A DNA stretch of 64,000 nucleotides from Artemia franciscana (Eukaryota > Arthropoda > Branchiopoda > Anostraca > Artemiidae): contig NC_088869.1 in assembly GCF_032884065.1 (NCBI RefSeq), positions 1 through 64,000 on the forward strand, in the 5' to 3' direction. Shown here piece by piece: positions 3,004 to 54,197 of the stretch. The position numbers were made by a program, and so were the translations under genes. How positions within the stretch are numbered: the stretch's first letter is position 1; the number at the start of each line of letters is the position of its first letter. The notes beneath the pieces were generated by a model, which saw only the letters and a list, made by a program, of their open reading frames with translations, did not search any database and was not told where the DNA came from.

Positions 3004-5270
3004 GTTGACTTAGATTGGCACAATTAAAAACATATATTTCAGGCACATATACAGGAACCTCTTCAAATTTTTGAAGTATATACTTTTATGCATGAAAACA
3101 TATATTTCAAGCGCGTATACAGGAACCTCTTCAAAAAATTTTGAACTTTATACGGTTATGTATAAAAACACATATTTTCAGGCATGTATACAGGAACCTC
3201 ATCAATTCTTTTTAAATTTTATACTTTTTTGCATAAAAACATTTATTTCAGGGTCGTATACAAGAACCTTTTCATAATATTTGAATTTTATACTTTTAGG
3301 TAATGAGACAGATATTTCAAGCACGTATACAGAAACTTCTTTAAATTTTTAGGATTTAATACTATTATATATAAAAACATTTATTTCAGGCACGTATGCA
3401 CGAACCTCTTAAAATTTTCCGAATTGTTTACTTTTATGTATAAAAACATATATTTCAGGCACGTATACAGGAACCTCTTCAAAATTTTCGAGTTTTATAC
3501 TTTTAGGTAATAAGACACATATTTCAAGCACGCATATAGAAATTACTTCAAATTTTTAGAAATTAATACTATTATGTATAAAAACATTTATTTCAGGCAC
3601 GTATACAGGAACCTCTTCATAATTTTTGAATTTTATACTTTTAGGTAATAAGACAGATATTTCAAGCACGTATATAGAAACTACTTCAAATTTTTAAGGA
3701 TTTGATACTATTATGTATAAAAACATGTATCTCTTCAATATTTTTCAAGAGTTTACTTTTATGTATAAAAACATATATTTCAGGCACGTATGAACGGACC
3801 TCTTAAAAATTTTTGAATTGTTTACTTTCATGTATAAAAACATATATTTCAGGCACGTATACAGGAACTTTTAATAATTTTTGAATTTTATACTTTTAGG
3901 TAATAAGACAGATATTTCAAATACGTCTATAGAAACTACTTCAAGTTCTTAGGATTTGATACTATTATGTATAAAAACATGTATTACAGGCACGTATGAA
4001 CGAACCTCTTCAATATTTTTGAAGGTTTTACTTTTATGTATAAAAACATATATTTCAGGCACGTATACAGGAACCTCTTAATAATGTTTGAATATTATAC
4101 TTTTGGGTACTAAGACATATATTTCAAGCACTTATATAGAAACTTCTTTAAATTTTTAGGATTTAATACTATTATATATAAAAACATTTATTTCAGGCAC
4201 GTATGCACGAACCTCTTAAAATTTTCCGAATTGTTTACTTTTATGTATAAAAACATATATTTCAGGCACGTATACAGGAACCTCTTCAAAATTTTCGAGT
4301 TTTATACTTTTAGGTAATAAGACACATATTTCAAGCACACATATAGAAATTACTTCAAATTTTTAGAAATTAATACTATTATGTATAAAAACATTTATTT
4401 CAGGCACGTATGCAGGAACCTCTTCATAATTTTTGAATTTTATACTTTTAGGTAATAAGACAGATATTTCAAGCACGTATATAGAAACTACTTCAAATTT
4501 TTAAGGATTTGATACTATTATGTATAAAAACATGTATCTCTTCAATATTTTTCAAGAGTTTACTTTTATGTATAAAAACATATATTTCAGGCACGTATGA
4601 ACGGACCTCTTAAAAATTTTTGAATTGTTTACTTTCATGTATAAAAACATATATTTCAGGCACGTATACAGGAACTTTTAATAATTTTTGAATTTTATAC
4701 TTTTAGGTAATAAGACAGATATTTCAAATACGTCTATAGAAACTACTTCAAGTTCTTAGGATTTGATACTATTATGTATAAAAACATGTATTACAGGCAC
4801 GTATGAACGAACCTCTTCAATATTTTTGAAGGTTTTACTTTTATGTATAAAAACATATATTACAGGCACGTATACAGGAACCTCTTAATAATGTTTGAAT
4901 ATTATACTTTTGGGTGCTAAGACATATATTTCAAGCACTTATATAGAAACTACTTGAAATTTTTAGGATTTAACACTATTATGTATAAAAACATGTATTT
5001 CAGGCACGCATGCACGAACCTCTTCAAAATTTTGAATTGTTTACTTTGATGTATAAAAACATATATTTCAGGCACGTATACAGGAACCTCTTCATAACTT
5101 TGAATTTTATAATTTTAGGTATAAAAACATATTCTTCAAGCACGTATGCACAACCCCAATTCAAAATTTTTGAATTTTTTACTTTTATGTATAAAAATAT
5201 GTATTTCAGACATTTATACAGGAACCTTTTCAAGCCCTTTTGAATTTTATTCTGTTATTATAAGACGTCA
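3004..5270 (+). repeat. ~70-bp satellite with 807-bp higher-order repeat
   Basis: About 32 diverged monomers of 66-72 bp, each with the recurring pieces ATAAAAACAT, TTTCAGGCACGTAT and ACAGGAACCTCTTC. Within the array the interval from about 3320 to 4126 is repeated almost base for base from about 4127 to 4933: landmark sequences at 3411, 3724 and 3900 recur at 4218, 4531 and 4707, always 807 bp apart. That equals 11-12 monomers per higher-order unit. The monomer length is not a multiple of three and stops are frequent, so the open frames over it are not genes. Confidence 0.9.
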
Positions 5271-24136: not shown

Positions 24137-25300
24137 TAGTTCTTAGATCTTGCTATTTGGGGCTTAGGATACGAATCATTATCTACCTTTGGTTCTTATC
24201 CTAATGCAATTTCAGTAGGTCATGAAGGAGACAAGGTGGAGTTTTGTCCCCTTATATATTAAATACTAGCTGCTGATAAACTTTTCCTGCTGATAAATGA
24301 GTCAAAATCTACTGGCTCCTCATTTCATTGAGGAGCTTTTGACAATATTTCGTATGCTTCTGCTCTTACTAGTGGTAGGATAACCTGTGGTTAGTTCTTA
24401 TATCTTGCTATTTGGGGCTTAGGATACGAATCATTATCTACCTTTGGTTCTTATCCTAATGCAATTTCTGTAGGTCATGAAGGAGACAAGGTGGAGTTTT
24501 GTCCCCTTATATATTAAATACTAGCTGCTGATAAACTTTTCCTGCTGATAAATGAGTCAAAATCTACTGGCTCCTCATTTCATTGAGGAACTTTTCACAA
24601 TATTTCGTATGCTTCTGCTCTTACTAGTGGTAGGATAACGTGTGGTTAGTTCTTAGATCTTGCTATTTGGGGCTTAGGATACAAATCATTGTCTACCTTT
24701 GATTCTTATCCTAATGCAATTTCAGTAGGTCATGAAGGAGACAAGGTGGAGTTTTGTCCCCTTATATATTAAATACTAGCTGCTGATAAACTTTTCCTGC
24801 TGATAAATGAGTCAAAATCTACTGGCTCCTCATTTCATTGAGGAGCTTTTGACAATATTTCGTATGCTTCTGCTCTTACTAGTGGTTGGTAGGATAACCT
24901 GTGGTTAGTTCTTAGATCTTGCTATTTGGGGCTTAGGATACGAATCATTATCTACCTTTGGTTCTTATCCTAATGCAATTTCTGTAGGTCATGAAGGAGA
25001 CAAGGTGGAGTTTTGTCCCCTTATATATTAAATACTAGCTGCTGATAAACTTTTCCTGCTGATAAATGAGTCAAAATCTACTGGCTCCTCATTTCATTGA
25101 GGAGCTTTTGACAATATTTCGTATGCTTCTGCTCTTACTAGTGGTTGGTAGGATAACCTGTGGTTAGTTCTTAGATCTTGCTATTTGGGGCTTAGGATAC
25201 AAATCATTGTCTACCTTTGATTCTTATCCTAATGCAATTTCAGTAGGTCATGAAGGAGACAAGGTGGAGTTTTGTCCCCTTATATATTAAATATTAATGT
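24137..25300 (+). repeat. 255/259-bp tandem array, about 4.5 units
   Basis: TAGTTCTTAGATCTTGC-like text starts units at 24137, 24392, 24647, 24906 and 25165. Two units are 259 bp because of a 4-base TTGG duplication at the AGTGG junction. Units are nearly identical, so the array is recent. In one frame each unit encodes protein-like text containing GAFDNISYAS, broken by a few stops, followed in the flank by a LINE YADD segment in the same frame sense, so the unit may derive from a LINE. Confidence 0.92.
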
Positions 25301-33576: not shown

Positions 33577-35989
33577 ATAAATCACTAAGACATTCTTGGT
33601 AAAATTATTGAGATAACAACATTATTTATTCCTTGATTATTAAATAATTTTTTTCTTCAGGTTTCATTTATTTATTCATAAAGATTTCTATTTGTTTTGA
33701 GTTTAGCAGATGACTATTTCTGCTCATTTTATGTTTTAATATTGCTCTTTAATTGTCTTTGAATCATTGTTTTTATTATTTGGTAGAAGGACCAAGTGTG
33801 TACAATACCTTTAAGAATCTTGACATGAAAAGGCTGAGCCGATATCATTTATTGCCCCTGTATCTTAGTTAGAATGGATTTTATTAAATACTCAGCATAG
33901 ATAAGTTGCCACAAAACACTTTTTTTCTATTATACCCTCCTTTGTGTTTTGAACTAAGGTGTTATTTTAGAAAGGAGTTAAAACAAGACAATCAATATTG
34001 ATGATTTTATCATCAAACTACATGATTCTATCTACAAACCAGGCTTGGTTGCTTTCATGCACAGGAAGTTTTATATCAAGTGCATGACATCTAATACAAG
34101 CCAATGAACTGGAATAGATTTATAGCTTACTATGCTTAAATAACTGTATAACATGCTTTGACAGGCAATGCACTGAACAGCACCTTTTATGCATACCTTC
34201 TTTGAGCGAAAGGATCCTAAAGATAGGTCCAAAGGGACCCCTAGGGAAAACTGAAAACTAAGGAAGACATAAACTTAATCAGGTTTTGAACCATGTCTTC
34301 TCCCCTCCAAGAAAAAATACTCTGATGCAACTATGGGAAAAACACTGGGTTACTGGTTCTGAGTCACTCTGCTTCAGGTCACATACTGTAAAAGCAGAAG
34401 CTGATGAGGAACTTATGAAGCAGCTACTATTGACTGTGCTGCTGCTGTGATATAAAAATTTCAAACTCAGTGATAGACATGTTTTCCAATTTGTTACAAG
34501 TGGTAGACAATCAGCTTGCACCTGAATTCAAATTCTAACATAATTAATAGGAAAATTTAACTTTTGTACCAAAAAATCACTTTATGTACCATAACTATCA
34601 CTCGGATGTACCATCCAAGCAAAGCACTTGTGCTGGCACCCCAATTTTGAATAGAAACCTTTGACTAGGTAAGTATACATAAGAATGAATAAATGAGGTA
34701 GGGACAAAGTGAGTATGCTACCTGATGCCTTTCTGTGCTCTTTCCAAACATAAAAATCATTTCACTCATAAATTCAATTTGAAACTCTCTAAAGGACCCA
34801 CCTTATTCCTTATTTTTGGCACAAAAAAAATCGGCTAAGAAAAGTGGTTTATAAAATACCAAACAATTATAAATATATTTTTCCCAAGGACTGCCATTTG
34901 GGACAATATTTGACACTACCACCAACTCACTTCACGGTAAAGCCCCCGAGATTAACACAACTGTGCACACTCCTTCAACCCAACCTATCCAAAACCCGTC
35001 TTTACACCCTCCAAGGAAGTTCCCATTTCCCTTAAATCTTTCTACATGCACCCATGCCAACCAAGGACTACCTGATTTCCATTTAGTCCTATATGGTTGG
35101 CTGAAAGGACAATCTGTCATCCTTCATCTACAGAACATACCCTAGCTATTTTAACCTTTCTCTCAATATAGCCCAAGAAAGCAGGATTGAACCACACTGT
35201 TTGTGCAGCCAACTGTTTGCAATAATTGGTCAGTTGGGTACCCAAAACAATCCATAGGCAAATTTCTCTGTAAAACATCAAGCAAATCTTTCTCAGTTTC
35301 TTGGATCAACCATGTTTCAGAAAAAACATTTGACCACCGTCATCCCTGTAGCTTCCAATATTCTAATATTGTTTTCCACTTATCTTTCATTTCTTCCAAA
35401 CTTTTTTCCACTTTGAAAAAAGACCCAGGGCCTTGGCTATTCAACCTTTAACATATTGACTGCTAATGCCAATGATAATATGACCCCCAAGTCTCTCTCT
35501 GCTTTGGACAAGATGATAGTCTGTCTTGATCCATCCATCCCTAACATATAGGATAAGATGATATTTATTTTGAAAAGGTTATCACAAGCTCTAAAAGCCA
35601 AATTTGCTTTATATGCCATGTAAGAATAAAGAAAATAAAATTTCAAATTAGTACATTAAGTCAACTTAACACACTGAACATGTTACATTAAGTCAAATAA
35701 ACAGTCAAGACATTGAAATGAAAAAAGGCAAAATCATCAAAGATAAAGGGCAAATCAGAAAGCTTGACAATTACTGATGGGGTTAAATTACAAAAACATT
35801 ACATATAAACAAAAATAAAAACAGCAATAGATGAGAAAGGGAACAATTTGTGGCAATATGCCATCAACAGGAAGAAAGACAAAGGAGTTGATTTTGGTAA
35901 GGACACAATCACAAATGATTATTAAGGTGCTCCAGAATAAAGGGGATAAAACTTTTATGAAACCTGTCTGTAGCAGCATGGATTGGACA
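33577..35989. other. Upstream region of the minus-strand gene; no supported exon
   Basis: Should contain the 5' non-coding exon and promoter of the minus-strand gene, but no promoter motif can be placed. Open frames at 34279-34521 (-) and 34963-35145 (+) show no family. The LINE 3' end begins to the right. Confidence 0.3.
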
Positions 35990-36260
35990 GCAAGTAAGGA
36001 TTGCTAAAGAGGCTGACTGGGGAGTTGGGGTCTAATGGGATTGTGAAATTCAAGGAGTAAGTCCTCAGTAAGGGATTGTAAATGACTGATTTAGTGAAAT
36101 GCGAGCAAATTTTTCCTCTTTTCTTTTAAGGTGGTAATACATGCAGTTTTAAGGAGGAAGGAGTATGGAATTTTGCTTGCTTTGTAAATGATCCTGAGCG
36201 CATGCTTTAGACCAACTCAGAGATGTCACTAACTTCACTTGAAGGTTGTGAATGCTAGAC
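35990..36260 (-). pseudogene. LINE 1, C-terminal end and start of 3' region
   Basis: Minus-strand frames downstream of the reverse transcriptase give ITTLKEKRKNLLAFH and then FHNPIRPQLPSQ. These sit where the C-terminal tail (arginine/lysine helix, then a P-rich end) sits in CR1/L2-like LINE proteins and correspond to the tail of LINE 2 at 62314. Frames are broken. The 3' untranslated part probably continues left into 35780-35990. Confidence 0.4.
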
Positions 36261-37437
36261 CAGACATGCACATTCCAATAGCAGCCTGACAAAGGATAAG
36301 TAAACACAGAGCGAATGTATCTTAGGACAATTAAATTTGTTTAGCAGCTTCAACATGGATAGTGAAACAATTGCTTGTTTAACAACATTGGAAATGTGCA
36401 TATCCCACTTGAAAATCATTAAAAATTTTGACACCAAGGAGTTTAACATGTTTCACAAGCATTTTGGGTGGGATCAGGTCACAGAAAACGGGAGTAGATT
36501 TCAAGAAGTTGATCATCATTATGTGTGATTTGGTGGAATTTACTATCATATTTAGATTCTTAGATTCATCTAAACATTGGGTTAGGATTTCAACAAAGTC
36601 ACTTTTAATATTCATATGACATACTTCAAGGATCAAGAAGTCATCCACATATTTTCATCTTTGGGGGAATTCCTTGCCAATATCATTAATCATGACAAGA
36701 TATAAGAGTGGTTCCAATAATGTCCCTTGAGGTGTTCCACAGTAAATAGGGAGGGGGGCTAGAGTAAATATTTTTGTATTTTACAACTTGTGATCTATTT
36801 GAAAGGAACAATATAACAATATTTATTAATAGAGGGTCAACTTCAAAGTTATCCTGTAGCAAACGAATTTGGATATTGTGGTCAACTAAGTCAAATGCTT
36901 CTTGGAAATTGACTAAAACCAAGTTTAGCAAAACATTTGGTTTCTCTAGTTCACTTACAATGGTATGAACCAAGCAAACAAGGTAATGGGGTGGTGGAGG
37001 TTTTTCTTAGATTATCAAACTGTCAGACATCAATGCATGGACAAATTTTAACTTTAAACCAGTCACAAAGAAACCTCTTATACAATTTTGAAAAAAACTA
37101 GAGTGAGTGTGATAGGACGCATGCTGCTTAAAGTCGGATTGGAAGATTTCTTTGGGACAGGTGTTATAAAACCTAGTTTCCAGCAACTTGGGAATTTATC
37201 ACATTTTGTAATTTGGTTAAAAGTCTCAGATAAAGGTCCAGCAATTGTGTCTGAAAAGGCTTTAATCAAGTCTATTGGGATGTCTAGAAGGCAAGTGCTT
37301 GATTCTTTGAGCTTTTGGATTTTATTCATAGTATCAGAGGGAGAAATTTGGGGGAAAGAGGTGGAGAGAGCAATAGTTTGATCTGAGTCAGTGAAAGGGG
37401 GAAAACTTTGACCAGTGGATGCAAGATACAGGTTCAA
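36255..37437 (-). pseudogene. LINE 1 reverse transcriptase
   Basis: Minus-strand frames carry the successive reverse-transcriptase blocks of a CR1/L2-like LINE: SCWKLGFITPVPKKSSNP and a degraded RPI-L block (to 37078), LVNFQEAFDLVDHNI (motif A with Asp), FLSNRSQVVKY, then KYVDDFLILEV (catalytic Y-V-D-D), VNSTKSHIMM and VKLLGVKIF, and finally LSFVRLLLECACLV (thumb, usually RP-LEYA-PVW). The blocks are in the right order but spread over several frames with stops, so the enzyme is dead. It would copy the element's RNA at a nicked genomic target. Confidence 0.85.
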
Positions 37438-37571
37438 ATTGTTGGTTATCTTATAAGGGGCTCAGAAAGATGAAAATTAACTTCAACAAGAATTTTGCTG
37501 GAAATCTCTTTAATTTTCCTGTACCATTGCTTGGGTTTGTTTGAATGCAGATCCTTAACTTTACTGATGCA

Positions 37572-37770
37572 CTAATCAGAGGCTATCTTTCTCAATTTCC
37601 TTTTCAAAAACTTTCTTAAATTGCGACTGTGTGACATGCCCTGGCTTGAACAAATTGATTTTTTTTCCTTATCAGTTTTTTTAATTTGCAGTAAGGTAAG
37701 GTTTATTGGTAGAGCATGTTTTAATTTTTTCACCCGAAAATGGGCTTCATAATTACTTCTCAATAAATTT
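37572..37770 (-). pseudogene. LINE 1, basic linker between endonuclease and reverse transcriptase
   Basis: A short Lys/Arg-rich minus-strand frame (LRKFLKRKLRKIASD and similar) lying between the endonuclease and reverse-transcriptase pieces, as in other LINE proteins. No domain assignment. Confidence 0.4.
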
Positions 37771-37956
37771 TAGAGGGACAAAGCCTTGTAGTTGAAATCA
37801 TTTGTTTGGTACACAGGGGACAAATTTTCACTAGTGGTCCAAAAACCAAAATTGTAGAGTCCTGAGTCAATTAGAGGTCTAAAGACAGTTTGAGCAACAG
37901 TAAAGGACTGTTTCACTGTACCCGGTGGAGATAGTAGTAGGCTAAACTGGTAACTC

Positions 37957-38610
37957 CTAGAGAGGTAGAATGGTGACAGGTCTGTAGAAACTAGACATAT
38001 AGGTGCATATCAAATCAAGAGTAGAGTTGCCTTTGATAGTAGGAAACTTTACAATTTGTTTTAGACTAAAAGTATTATATGTAGATTCAAGTTTTAATTC
38101 ATTTGCATCACCTAACAGGAAAATCCCAGCATTTGGGCATTTGGATAGTACATAGTAAGCACTGGCATGCAATTTTTCAATAAAGTTAATTTTGTCAGCA
38201 ATTCTCTGCCCAGGATATTAATAAAAACAACACAGGACAATCAAATTGAAAGGACATGGTAAGACCTTAGGTCAAACCCACACCCACAAAATTTCACCAA
38301 AGGGAGCTAAAGAAGGAACAGATATTTCAGAAGGATAAAAATCATTATGGACAAAGAAAAGAATTTCTCCCCCCCCCCTTTCTTACCCAGAGGGTGGGTT
38401 TTGGGCCTGAGTTTAATAAACTGAGAGAAATTGTTCATTTGTAATATATGTAATTTTGAGCACTTCAGTAATAGCAATTATGTCTGATCTATATATTTTA
38501 GAAAAGGAGTCTAAGTCATTAAGTCTTCCAAAGTTTAGACTTTCAGCATTACTTAACAAAGGTATGTGGAACTTAAAACAGCTTATAAAGGTACCATTTT
38601 TACAATTAGC
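37957..38610 (-). pseudogene. LINE 1 AP-type endonuclease
   Basis: The start of the domain is LLSNAESLNFGRLNDLDSFS followed by DIIAITEV (the N-A-R-S-L and I-x-I-T-E-T blocks), here at about 38465-38590. A later piece (37957-38172) has GIFLLGDANELK, matching the G-D-F-N block, then IVKFPTIKGNSTLDLI, matching the T-R-x-x-x-x-L-D-L-I block. These are the landmarks of the apurinic-like endonuclease that nicks target DNA. Frames are broken between them. Confidence 0.8.
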
Positions 38611-39174
38611 TTTATTTAAATCACAAATGGATAAATCACAACGGACTGAGGGAACACATTTGACTTTACTGAGATAATTATTAGAGTCAACACGAATAGA
38701 AGAATTATTCCCATTTGTCCAATTATTCACATTTTGTAATTGGGAGTAAGAGGAGCGTGGGTATGGGGAAAGAGAGCACTCTTTTTCAATGGGGATGTTG
38801 TTAGCATGGCTGGGAATTGCACTGGAATGGAGATGATCTGTTAAACAACTGCTACCTGGTAATTGCCATGGTGGGAATGGTGATTCATGTCCATCAGGAA
38901 ATTGCTGGTCTGTGGCAGAGTAAGGAGGGTATAGGGCACCATGCTGTGAGAGGGGGAGGAAGTAAGACTTCTGTATGCACAGAGGGGGAGGACGTAACAA
39001 ATGGTAAGGGATGGGTGTTGGTAATTGGGAAGGGTTTATTAATTGTTGAGCTGTCAAATGAACTTTGATGATAAATTTTGTTTGTGTGCAGAGCACTAAA
39101 AAATGACAGCAGAAGGGAGATGAGTTGCTCATATAATTTTTATCTTTGGAAAGGGACCATGAAATGGGGCCCAA
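38611..39174 (-). pseudogene. LINE 1 proline-rich linker
   Basis: One long minus-strand frame (to 39174) encodes a Pro-, Ser- and His-rich stretch with text such as SQLPTPIPYHLLRPPPL and HGALYPPY between the zinc-finger region and the endonuclease. Low complexity, probably disordered. The same frame continues into the endonuclease start, which suggests a single long protein in the ancestor. Confidence 0.6.
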
Positions 39175-39640
39175 TGGAAAAACTTAACCTCAGCTACAGG
39201 TGATGGATGAGCAAAACTACAACATTTGTCAATGCAAGCAAAAACTGGACAAAGTTTCACATGGTCAAAACTGCACTGGACAGAACTACAACTACCTGAA
39301 ATAAAATTACAACAAATATGCAAAAACTTGCACTGCTTACGAAATTTTCAGCAATTATGATTAAAATGTTTACATATCTAATTTTTTTGCTGGAACCTGG
39401 TTGAAACATGAATGTATTTTGATTTATTAGCAGAAGAGGTAGTCTTATTATCCAGGTTATTCACTTTGCTAATGTTGCTTGAAGCACACAATGATATAAA
39501 CTAGCTTAAAGAACAATCATGTCTAAAAGTACAGTCATCTCTTATTTTTCACAAACTAGTCAAAATCATATTTGCACATTTAGGCCTACACATGTGAGAC
39601 AAAGGGACTTTATCATTTGTCAGGTTATTCACTTCACTTT
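39129..39640 (-). pseudogene. LINE 1 ORF1-like region with CCCH zinc fingers
   Basis: In one minus-strand frame, broken by stops, four finger-like units occur in a row: CANMILTSL, stop, KIRDDCTFRH (C-x8-[stop]-x5-C-x3-H, the stop being TGA where a Cys codon TGT/TGC would complete the finger); CKHFNHNC, stop, KFRKQCKFLH; CCNFISGSCSSVQCSFDH; and a degenerate CPVFACIDKCCSFAH. The spacing C-x6-8-C-x4-6-C-x3-H with C-x-F-x-H endings is the CCCH class, which typically binds RNA. Most LINE ORF1 proteins are known for CCHC knuckles, PHD-like or esterase domains. Confidence 0.6.
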
Positions 39641-40492
39641 CTTCAAAACGTTGATTTGTAGAAATATAATTGTCTAGAGATGATACAAGGTCAGAGAAAT
39701 TAGCCAACTCATGAATAAGTGATGAATATTCAGTATTTTTAACCTAAGAGATCTGGTCACTAACATTATTTTATGGATTTTGGACCTCTACTTGATTTGT
39801 GTAACTATTTTTTGGAAGTGTCTTCATCTTGCTGAGCAAAAAGAAGAATATCCAGGGTAGTTAAGAATATCCAGTTGGGGAGGAATATCACTACATTGTG
39901 CTGCAGACATGGGGTGAGAAATAACTGTCGAAACTTGTTTTAAAGCCTCTCCTAGCTTGCTTTTTACTTCCAACAAAACAAACTCTGGTTTGCCTGGGAA
40001 AAGGCTTTGCCTGAACTGATACCTCATGTGAGCAGGGGTGCAAGTTATTAGGGATGGTACAAAGAATAGAGGAAGGGCCAACAAAATGAGTAGTGTTGAC
40101 CTCTATCTGACTGGAGGCTTCCAGAGGGGAGAATGTATCTTCATGACAGAAGCATTGGGAAGGAGGGATCTTCTTCTGTTACAGGAGGGGCAACAGCAAT
40201 TAATTATTAAGTTCTTTGAGGATAGTAAGCATCCTGGCTCTTGAATTAGGAGAACAAAGAGTATGAGGGGAAGGTAGAACAGGTAAATTCAAACAATTTA
40301 CCTGTAAGATTGAAGTATTCTTAGAGGAACAATCAGGAAACAACCATCTATCAGTCTAATTAGCTGCATCAATTTTGCACACTTTTCAGTTCCTGCACAA
40401 AATGAACAATTGCACCCTCCACATTTAACTGAGTTGGAAAACACTCTCAGTCAGCATTCAGGACAAACTAGTATTTGTCTAACCATAACCAT
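39641..40492 (-). pseudogene. LINE 1 N-terminal part with Cys cluster
   Basis: A possible start ATG at 40490-40492 opens MVMVRQILVCPEC; after one stop the same frame has VKCGGCNCSFCAGTEKC. The spacing C-x2-C-x10-C-x2-C-x1-C-x2-C-x5-C resembles a treble-clef or PHD-like zinc site. Downstream frames carry SKLGEALKQVSTVIS and a Ser/Leu-rich probably helical stretch (ELANFSDLVSSLDNYIS) leading into the CCCH fingers, with frameshifts near 39830. I infer this is the 5' end of the coding part of the LINE. Confidence 0.45.
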
Positions 40493-42036
40493 TTCTTGTA
40501 ATTTTTTTCATCAAGAGGTTAATGGGGCAAAGATAAATATTGAGGTGTTCACAGGCCAGATGCTAGACAATAACTTTTTCTAAAGTGGATTGTTTAACAT
40601 TTACTTACATTGACTTCAAGCTTCCAAAAATTTGCCAACTGGGAAAGTACCATTAGGTCATTCTGCATAGAGGCTTCTTATTGAGTGTATCTACAGAGAT
40701 GATATATCTAACAACAAGAGATGAAATCCCGTAGAGATAATCTCAAGCCTATTATCTCCAACTCATTATATATTCATGCCTAGAAATATTATTCTATTGT
40801 GGGGAGCAGCCCATAGTATACAAATTAGCTAGGAAGAGGTTTTTCAGCCCAAAACCCACACCAAAACAGACCAAGCCCAAAAGAATTATTCATTAATTAG
40901 AACCCATTCAAATGCTGTGTTTTTTAATAGGCTATAATTCCTTGGGGGCATCAATCCTCAAGTAGGAATAGAGTTGATCACAAGGTCCATGGTCTTGTGG
41001 GTACCCTAACAGAGTTGATGCAGCTGTAATGCTTTGTTTTCTTTGTGAATAGATTTTTTGATCTGTCAAACAATTGGATTATAAAAAATTTCAGATCCAT
41101 TAAATGTTATTCTCCCACTTAGAGTTTTGCCTTTTTAACAGCAATGTGTAGCCTCTACTCCTCTATGTTTTAGAGAACATGGCACCTAAACAGACAGCAA
41201 GTAAGACAAATTCAAGCATTTTAAAAAACTTACCCCTGAAGAATATTGAATATCCATTGGACCCCAAAATCACAGACCAGTCAATAAGATACACTGGACA
41301 ACCAGTTTTGATCAATACACACAGAATATATAAATAGAGATACTTGGGACATATCCTACCAGTGGATAACCAGCAACTTCTGAATTTTGTCCTTCACTGG
41401 TACTCATCATAGGCAAAGGTCTGGGAATACACTATGGCACAACTAGGACACTGACCTTAACAGCCTTAACACTTTTATCAAGCCCAAGTGGTAGGATTCA
41501 GGGTAGATGTATAGGCCTACATCTTCACATAATTTGGCTAGGAAGAAAGTGAATGCATCACTTAATGTCTCTTTTATGCTATTTCTAAATTCAGTAGTAG
41601 ATTCTGGAACAAATACCATTTTGAGCCATTAAACAGGCCACAGTAACCAAAAGTTTGAAATACATTTCTAAAACAGAATGCCTAGTGTGACAAAATAGCC
41701 ATTTGTAGCTACTTAAGGAATAATAATTATCTTTTTCTTTAGTCTTAATAGTAAAAAGTTATTCAAAACAAATTTGCAGCAATTTTTAAAGAGCCTGAAA
41801 CCTCTTGAATATGACATCACAAAAGCCAAAAGTAAATGTTTAGTTTCATTCCAAGCTGTCTAAAGTGCATATTACTGCATATAGCAGGATTCTGATGACT
41901 GCATATTGTTTCTTTGTCATTATCAGAGAAGCACATCCATTTTTTAGCTTTCTAAAATCCCTCTCCAACAAGACTAAAAATGTGTAAAGTGGGCTTGCTT
42001 ACATGTAACATTACCTATAGAGTGAAGTGTATTAGT
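40493..42036. other. Non-coding stretch, nothing recognised
   Basis: Would include the LINE 5' untranslated region at its left. No exon or other element was supported. Confidence 0.3.

Positions 42037-52480: not shown

Positions 52481-54197
<1,717 letters not shown>

Follow-up and report, generated by a model that had tools for sequence, protein, structure and literature searches.

The first 64,000 nucleotides of Artemia franciscana contig NC_088869.1 (hereafter the window, the start of contig 7 and low in G+C) hold a decayed copy of a long interspersed nuclear element (LINE) whose first open reading frame (ORF1) contains CCCH zinc fingers. The family to which it belongs is a non-long terminal repeat (non-LTR) one and probably encodes a gag-like ORF1 protein, with a PHD or PHD-like finger and three CCCH fingers, that binds RNA and chromatin and is also made as a fusion with endonuclease (EN) and reverse transcriptase (RT). 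The modules recur in the same order, linked to one another, in many copies across the genome. The zinc ligands of the fingers are conserved between two subfamilies, some copies are recent, and a heptamer lies where a -1 frame leading into EN-RT opens.

Structure of the window copy

A preliminary description had placed the lower boundary of the element at 35,990. This is revised to ~35,548, since the blastn alignment with the relative L032 (83.3% identity over 3,116 positions) reaches down to window position 35548 and the tail there resembles the 3' ends of relatives. The alignment with L030 (72.9%) starts at ~40486. The parts of the copy are as follows.

35548..40500, minus strand: whole LINE copy, decayed, ~5 kb, 5' end approximate; delimited by blastn to L032 and L030 and by the common 3' tail
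40329..40465, minus strand: Cys cluster at the N-terminus, PHD-like as in subfamily B, interrupted by a frameshift and a stop; Cys replaces one expected His
39519..39578, minus strand: first CCCH-like unit of the preliminary description, C-x8-stop-x5-C-x3-H, unconfirmed; a TGA at 39551 takes the place of the second Cys
39318..39374, minus strand: finger 1 in the conserved CCCH array; the codon for its second Cys is TGA here and TGT in the window-type relative L043
39261..39314, minus strand: CCCH finger 2, C-x7-C-x4-C-x3-H, one residue past finger 1
39207..39251, minus strand: CCCH finger 3, with the irregular spacing of the window type
38630..39110, minus strand: Pro-rich linker, limits approximate; 83% identical to L029 over 184 nt
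37960..38590, minus strand: endonuclease of Exo_endo_phos type, broken, limits approximate; collinear with L032
36379..37461, minus strand: reverse transcriptase pieces in several frames, with YVDD; RVT_1 matches the last piece (E 2.8e-4)
35548..35640, minus strand: 3' end with a ATAAATATCATCTTATC-type tail

The CCCH-like units sit in one minus-strand frame (39800..39129), and the Cys cluster was matched by eye with the B-type PHD of L030, L036, L039 and L041. Searched alone, the window pieces match Pfam models weakly (PARP12-type CCCH, E 0.02; zf-CCCH, E 4.6; RVT_1 as listed), with no Pfam match to an EN model, and the case therefore rests on relatives. Three C-x4-6-C-x3-H motifs fall within 200 residues of one frame, while no more than two appeared in any of 60 random sequences that a first-order Markov chain generated from the window (one in 46 sequences, two in 14), the pattern having been picked after the units were seen. 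This control, together with conservation between copies, rules out a chance cluster of Cys and His residues. The EN-RT of the window copy is of B type, as its identity to L032 indicates, and its fingers represent a third, older variant common to L043 (78% over 197 nt). The copy in the window is thus dead and among the older members of the family.

Relatives and subfamilies

The genome (1.27 Gb) was searched with the Pfam model zf-CCCH_PARP12, giving 137 matches at E<=1 among the 150 scored of 364 candidates. All 14 loci taken from finger matches contain ORF1, whole or in part, and RT is also present in all five that were taken at 6-7 kb (L029-L033). At 20 loci around other RT matches, none belonged to the CCCH family by close match, their RT being only 24-31% identical.

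The relatives form two subfamilies, A and B, with a common plan of PHD or PHD-like finger, three CCCH fingers, Pro-rich tail, EN and RT. They thus share the order that had been proposed from the window alone, a CCCH array ahead of EN and RT on the same strand. In subfamily A the proposed N-terminal Cys cluster reads as a PHD finger, and B and the window copy have a PHD-like one. The ORF1 frame of subfamily A measures 557 aa, exactly so in nine of the listed A matches, and carries an N-terminal C4HC3 PHD and the fingers VCFNFLDSRCISNNCKYLH-ICKFFVFSRCTNNLCKYPH-VDICKKFSSGRCFGCTKAH. The subfamily B frame, 551 aa in one copy (L041), has a window-like PHD-like cluster and the fingers VCKDFLRAKCNHGKRCNRLH-ICKYFLTGSCNKSSCSFDH-VSICSVFMSGRCFGCDKYH. 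In L029 a single open frame of 1518 aa runs from PHD to RT. This locus is 98% identical to L033 over 5,170 nt, from which we infer that the family moved recently. The relatives are younger than the window copy, numerous and partly intact.

The RT of the family is of non-LTR type, with R2 and L1 ORF2p as the best solved chains, and RVT_1 scores 78.4 bits on the 1518-aa frame. An apurinic/apyrimidinic endonuclease (APE)-type domain lies upstream of it. Exo_endo_phos passes its cut-off of 24.5 bits in L029 (25.0) and stays below it in L031 (20.4) and L032 (19.7, E 7.9e-4). As in other LINEs, copies are dispersed, include recent ones and share a common 3' tail. The C-terminal part of EN reads GGSYH in all four copies that hold it (L029, L031, L032 and L033). 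SDH is usual at this place in APE-type LINEs, and it would be notable if the Asp next to the catalytic His had been lost.

Modules have been exchanged between the subfamilies. L030 is a chimera of a B ORF1 joined to an A RT, and in L031 A fingers are joined to a B EN-RT. The EN-RT regions of A and B are ~64% identical in DNA and the linker is closer, that of L029 being 81% identical to the L032 linker (298 nt) and 88% to the L031 linker (452 nt). This exchange fits the reticulate evolution of ORF1 described in a survey of ORF1 types (PMC4120745).

Conservation of the fingers

Fingers 1 and 2 read C-x7-C-x4-5-C-x3-H in both subfamilies, with ligands kept, and finger 3 reads C-x7-C-x2-C-x3-H. 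A and B share all 12 ligands, apart from one that L037 has lost, although the finger regions are only ~40% identical. Given 29 identical residues of 69, the probability that all 12 ligands would coincide by chance is ~6e-6. The Cys and His residues are therefore conserved, and a claim of four CCCH units is reduced to three. The last three units of the window are conserved in relatives, and the first, which has a TGA at its second Cys, is matched by nothing in the open stretch (45-371 residues) that precedes the fingers at each of the 14 A and B loci.

Profile searches assign the fingers to the CCCH class. B-type fingers pass the Pfam zf-CCCH cut-off of 20.5 bits (L030, 21.4; L032, 23.9; the L041 finger piece, 28.5), and among 13 aligned finger regions the PARP12-type model matches 13, the ZAP-like model 12 and zf-CCCH seven at E<=1. 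A profile of the fingers, run against PDB, finds MBNL1 (8.4e-7), ZAP (1.7e-6) and CPSF4 (4.9e-5). For the N-terminal module, whose Cys/His pattern was recognised by eye, the best PHD match among eight PHD pieces has an E-value of 4.8e-7. The modules known from other ORF1 proteins (RRM, CCHC, Tnp22 and esterase) give no Pfam match at E<=1 in the frames of L029-L032 or in the finger pieces.

Several observations weigh against this assignment of modules or against their being maintained. Although CCCH models match the A-type fingers, they do so below their cut-offs (ZAP-like in L029, 22.1 of 27 bits; PARP12-type in L031, 21.5 of 27). The PHD profile behaves unevenly: in the whole frame of L029 it scores 21.1 bits against a cut-off of 24, and the B type is weak (L039, PHD_2 E 0.21, PHD E 0.77). 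Older copies often have damaged fingers; among six further A copies only L053 keeps the 12 ligands in one frame, and the fingers of L052 and L054 are frameshifted. Among young copies, silent changes in ORF1 are not clearly in excess, the codon-position counts being uninformative.

Linkage of the fingers to the LINE

Finger-model matches are biased towards intact fingers, and linkage was therefore followed with short DNA patterns. These occur at 57 (PHD-B), 102 (PHD-A), 73 (ZF-B), 75 (ZF-A), 63 (junction A) and 56 (junction B) places in the genome, and a 38-mer RT-B pattern at 233, including one within the window (C7:37235). Every reversed pattern, used as a control, gave 0 places.

Finger sequence is present in 71 of the 72 copies that bear both the PHD and the junction pattern, which rules out that the fingers are absent from most copies. 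In subfamily A, counted from the PHD-A places that have at most one mismatch (58), 37 of 38 such copies hold fingers (34 by pattern, one by profile match and two by reading), and the sole copy without detected fingers, by pattern, is C6:15782129. In subfamily B, 34 of 34 copies drawn from the 57 PHD-B places hold them, 33 by pattern and the last through a profile match at C16.

Counted from the PHD side alone, 41 of the 57 PHD-B places are linked to profile matches and 47 to ZF-B places, plus one to a profile match. Five of the ten unlinked PHD-B places are accounted for: the fingers are decayed in L043 and L046 and missing from L045, and two places (on C17 and C7) have finger places 4.5-5.1 kb on. 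For PHD-A, 43 of the 100 places listed out of 102 are linked to profile matches. Three unlinked ones that were read are fragments or end before the fingers. Ten unlinked A copies have both flanks, and finger sequence is present in each of the six that were read. A finger place lies upstream of 11 among 100 listed RT-B places, a low count that is as expected if most copies are 5'-truncated.

PHD-A-like fragments also repeat every ~4.08 kb (G000:C6462, near 73902, 77979 and 82071), and L048 is a PHD-like fragment amid other sequence.

Joining of ORF1 to EN-RT and alternative explanations

EN-RT is in the -1 frame relative to ORF1 in both L033 (A) and L041 (B), and overlaps the 3' end of ORF1 by ~363 and ~276 nt, respectively. 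This frame becomes open 9 nt ahead of the heptamer, which is T_TTT_TTA in L033 and A_AAA_AAC in L041. Counts of ungapped matches, which miss copies with indels, show an intact heptamer at 61 of 63 junction places in A and at 52 of 56 in B, and its flanking bases are also well conserved. A 9-bp stem lies 13 nt beyond the heptamer in L041, where the 80-nt minimum free energy at the junction is in the lowest 1.8% of windows of its own ORF1. Read from these sequences, the chances that -1 frameshifting joins ORF1 to EN-RT appear about even.

With somewhat less than an even chance, EN-RT may instead be reached without frameshifting, either as one continuous frame in active copies, the -1 copies being broken, or from a start of its own in ORF2, the heptamers being accidental. 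Much of the evidence that weighs against frameshifting points this way. An ORF2 linker marker, found in 10 of the 14 loci, shares the frame of the fingers in five (L029, L031, L032, L039 and L040), lies in the -1 frame in four (L033, L034, L036 and L041) and in the +1 frame in one (L038), and the linker is indel-rich across loci. L029 is the only locus read with an unbroken EN-RT, and it is fused in a single frame. The fold at the A junction is no better than that of shuffles (z -0.55 to 0.48), and each ORF1 holds 9-10 canonical in-frame heptamers, making one within the overlap not rare. In L041, Met codons lie 98 and 31 residues ahead of the EN motif NAESL, so that a separate EN-RT start is possible in B. 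Frameshifting is favoured by the 557-aa ORF1 frame that nine A matches share and by the A junctions, 36 of 63 of which are letter-identical over 41 nt to that of L033, a -1 copy whose EN-RT carries a further frameshift. The in-frame copies, moreover, each have separate indels: L029 is joined through a 1-nt deletion and two extra T, at and just before the T-run, and L031, L032, L039 and L040 through other changes, as judged by eye. The first Met after the heptamer in L029 lies beyond the EN motif GDAN, and an AUG start therefore cannot give the whole EN there. The suggestion that the ancestor made one long protein thus agrees with five of the ten loci, including the 1518-aa frame, and disagrees with L033 and L041, where EN is in the -1 frame. 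An ORF1-EN-RT fusion protein, formed by either route, is likely.

The origin of the fingers allows two further explanations. We regard it as unlikely that they are a captured host module of ZAP/PARP12 type, as opposed to having arisen or drifted within LINEs. The ZAP-like and PARP12-type models match nearly all finger regions, as given above, and the one-residue C-x3-H-I-C linker also occurs in ZAP; set against this, MBNL1 scores equally well and CPSF4 nearly so, and no PARP or WWE domain matches at E<=1 beside the fingers in the Pfam search of the L029-L032 frames. It is very improbable that the finger stretch is a host exon adjoining LINE fragments and lying outside the LINE. The window copy, broken in many places, could on its own be read in that way. 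Order and spacing are nevertheless fixed in dozens of dispersed copies, the unbroken frame of L029 spans PHD to RT, and the presence of LINE ORF1 or part of it at all 14 finger loci, with RT too in the five taken at 6-7 kb, contradicts a host exon.

Under the favoured explanation, a LINE family with a gag-like PHD and CCCH protein, the CCCH fingers would bind the RNA of the element itself and build a ribonucleoprotein, which the PHD finger may tether to chromatin. The ORF1-EN-RT fusion would arise through a -1 slip, at T_TTT_TTA in A and at A_AAA_AAC in B, or from a continuous frame in some copies, and would nick DNA and copy the RNA by target-primed reverse transcription. More tentatively, and with doubt somewhat outweighing confidence, the family may define a new ORF1 class, in which a gag-like PHD and CCCH protein is produced as a retrovirus-style pair of ORF1 and ORF1-EN-RT via heptamers of HIV and MMTV type, in subfamilies with swapped finger and EN-RT modules.

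Other sequence features

Other LINEs of the genome (L010-L013, L015, L019 and L025) have ORF1 frames with CCHC-like knuckles, recognised by eye. Around the RT match of L009 (G000:C8:46335600-46345500), stop-free frames of 1,328 to 1,976 aa occur in all six frames, which perhaps reflects a tandem array. Within the window, a 255-bp unit is repeated in tandem at 24137-25293 (4.5 copies, 97% matches), a 69-bp unit forms an array with a higher-order period of 207 bp at 3025-5263, and 52484-52905 is a perfect (TA)211 run.

Comparison with known systems

ORF1 is the fast-changing and less understood half of LINEs, and the CCCH array widens the range of its RNA-binding-type modules in a family with copies young enough for testing. 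According to PMC4120745, PHD-containing ORF1 proteins of the CR1 and L2 lineages are classified as types IC, IIC and III, and some subgroups have a single ORF. These elements resemble the present family in combining a PHD in ORF1 with an APE-type endonuclease and a non-LTR RT, but the modules tabled there besides PHD are RRM, CCHC, Tnp22, coiled coil or none. Type IV ORF1 proteins in that survey also contain a zinc finger, described as a zinc finger/leucine zipper; unlike the present family, which gives no esterase match at E<=1, they have an esterase and another finger type. The terms CCCH and C3H occur nowhere in the main text of the survey, in line with the earlier view that CCCH fingers are unusual for a LINE ORF1. 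No LINE ORF1 with CCCH or C3H fingers was found in the literature searched, a search to which Repbase and most subscription papers were external; the papers listed dealt with host factors, were reviews or, in one case, concerned a fungal transposon.

If frameshifting does occur, a LINE would be joining ORF1 to pol at a canonical slippery site, in parallel with Gag-Pol of retroviruses. The Gag/Gag-Pol heptamers of retroviruses include U_UUU_UUA in HIV-1 and A_AAA_AAC in MMTV. In both settings an upstream frame carries a canonical heptamer and is followed by pol in the -1 frame, here in part of the copies. The LINE differs in that the shift, as read from sequence, would join ORF1 to EN-RT, and in that copies vary. 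Among non-LTR elements, the telomeric HeT-A needs a frameshift for its gag, as reported in PMC5009743, and among the titles listed in searches on frameshifting none names a LINE in which ORF1 and ORF2 meet at a slippery site.

The fingers themselves are comparable to those of ZAP (ZC3HAV1), PARP12 and MBNL1, which contain tandem CCCH fingers and to which the family has profile matches; ZAP fingers have the same one-residue linker as those of the LINE. These are host proteins without EN or RT, while no PARP or WWE domain is listed for the LINE. ZAP is reported to restrict LINE retrotransposition, and a LINE with ZAP/PARP12-like fingers raises the question of whether the two compete for the same RNA.

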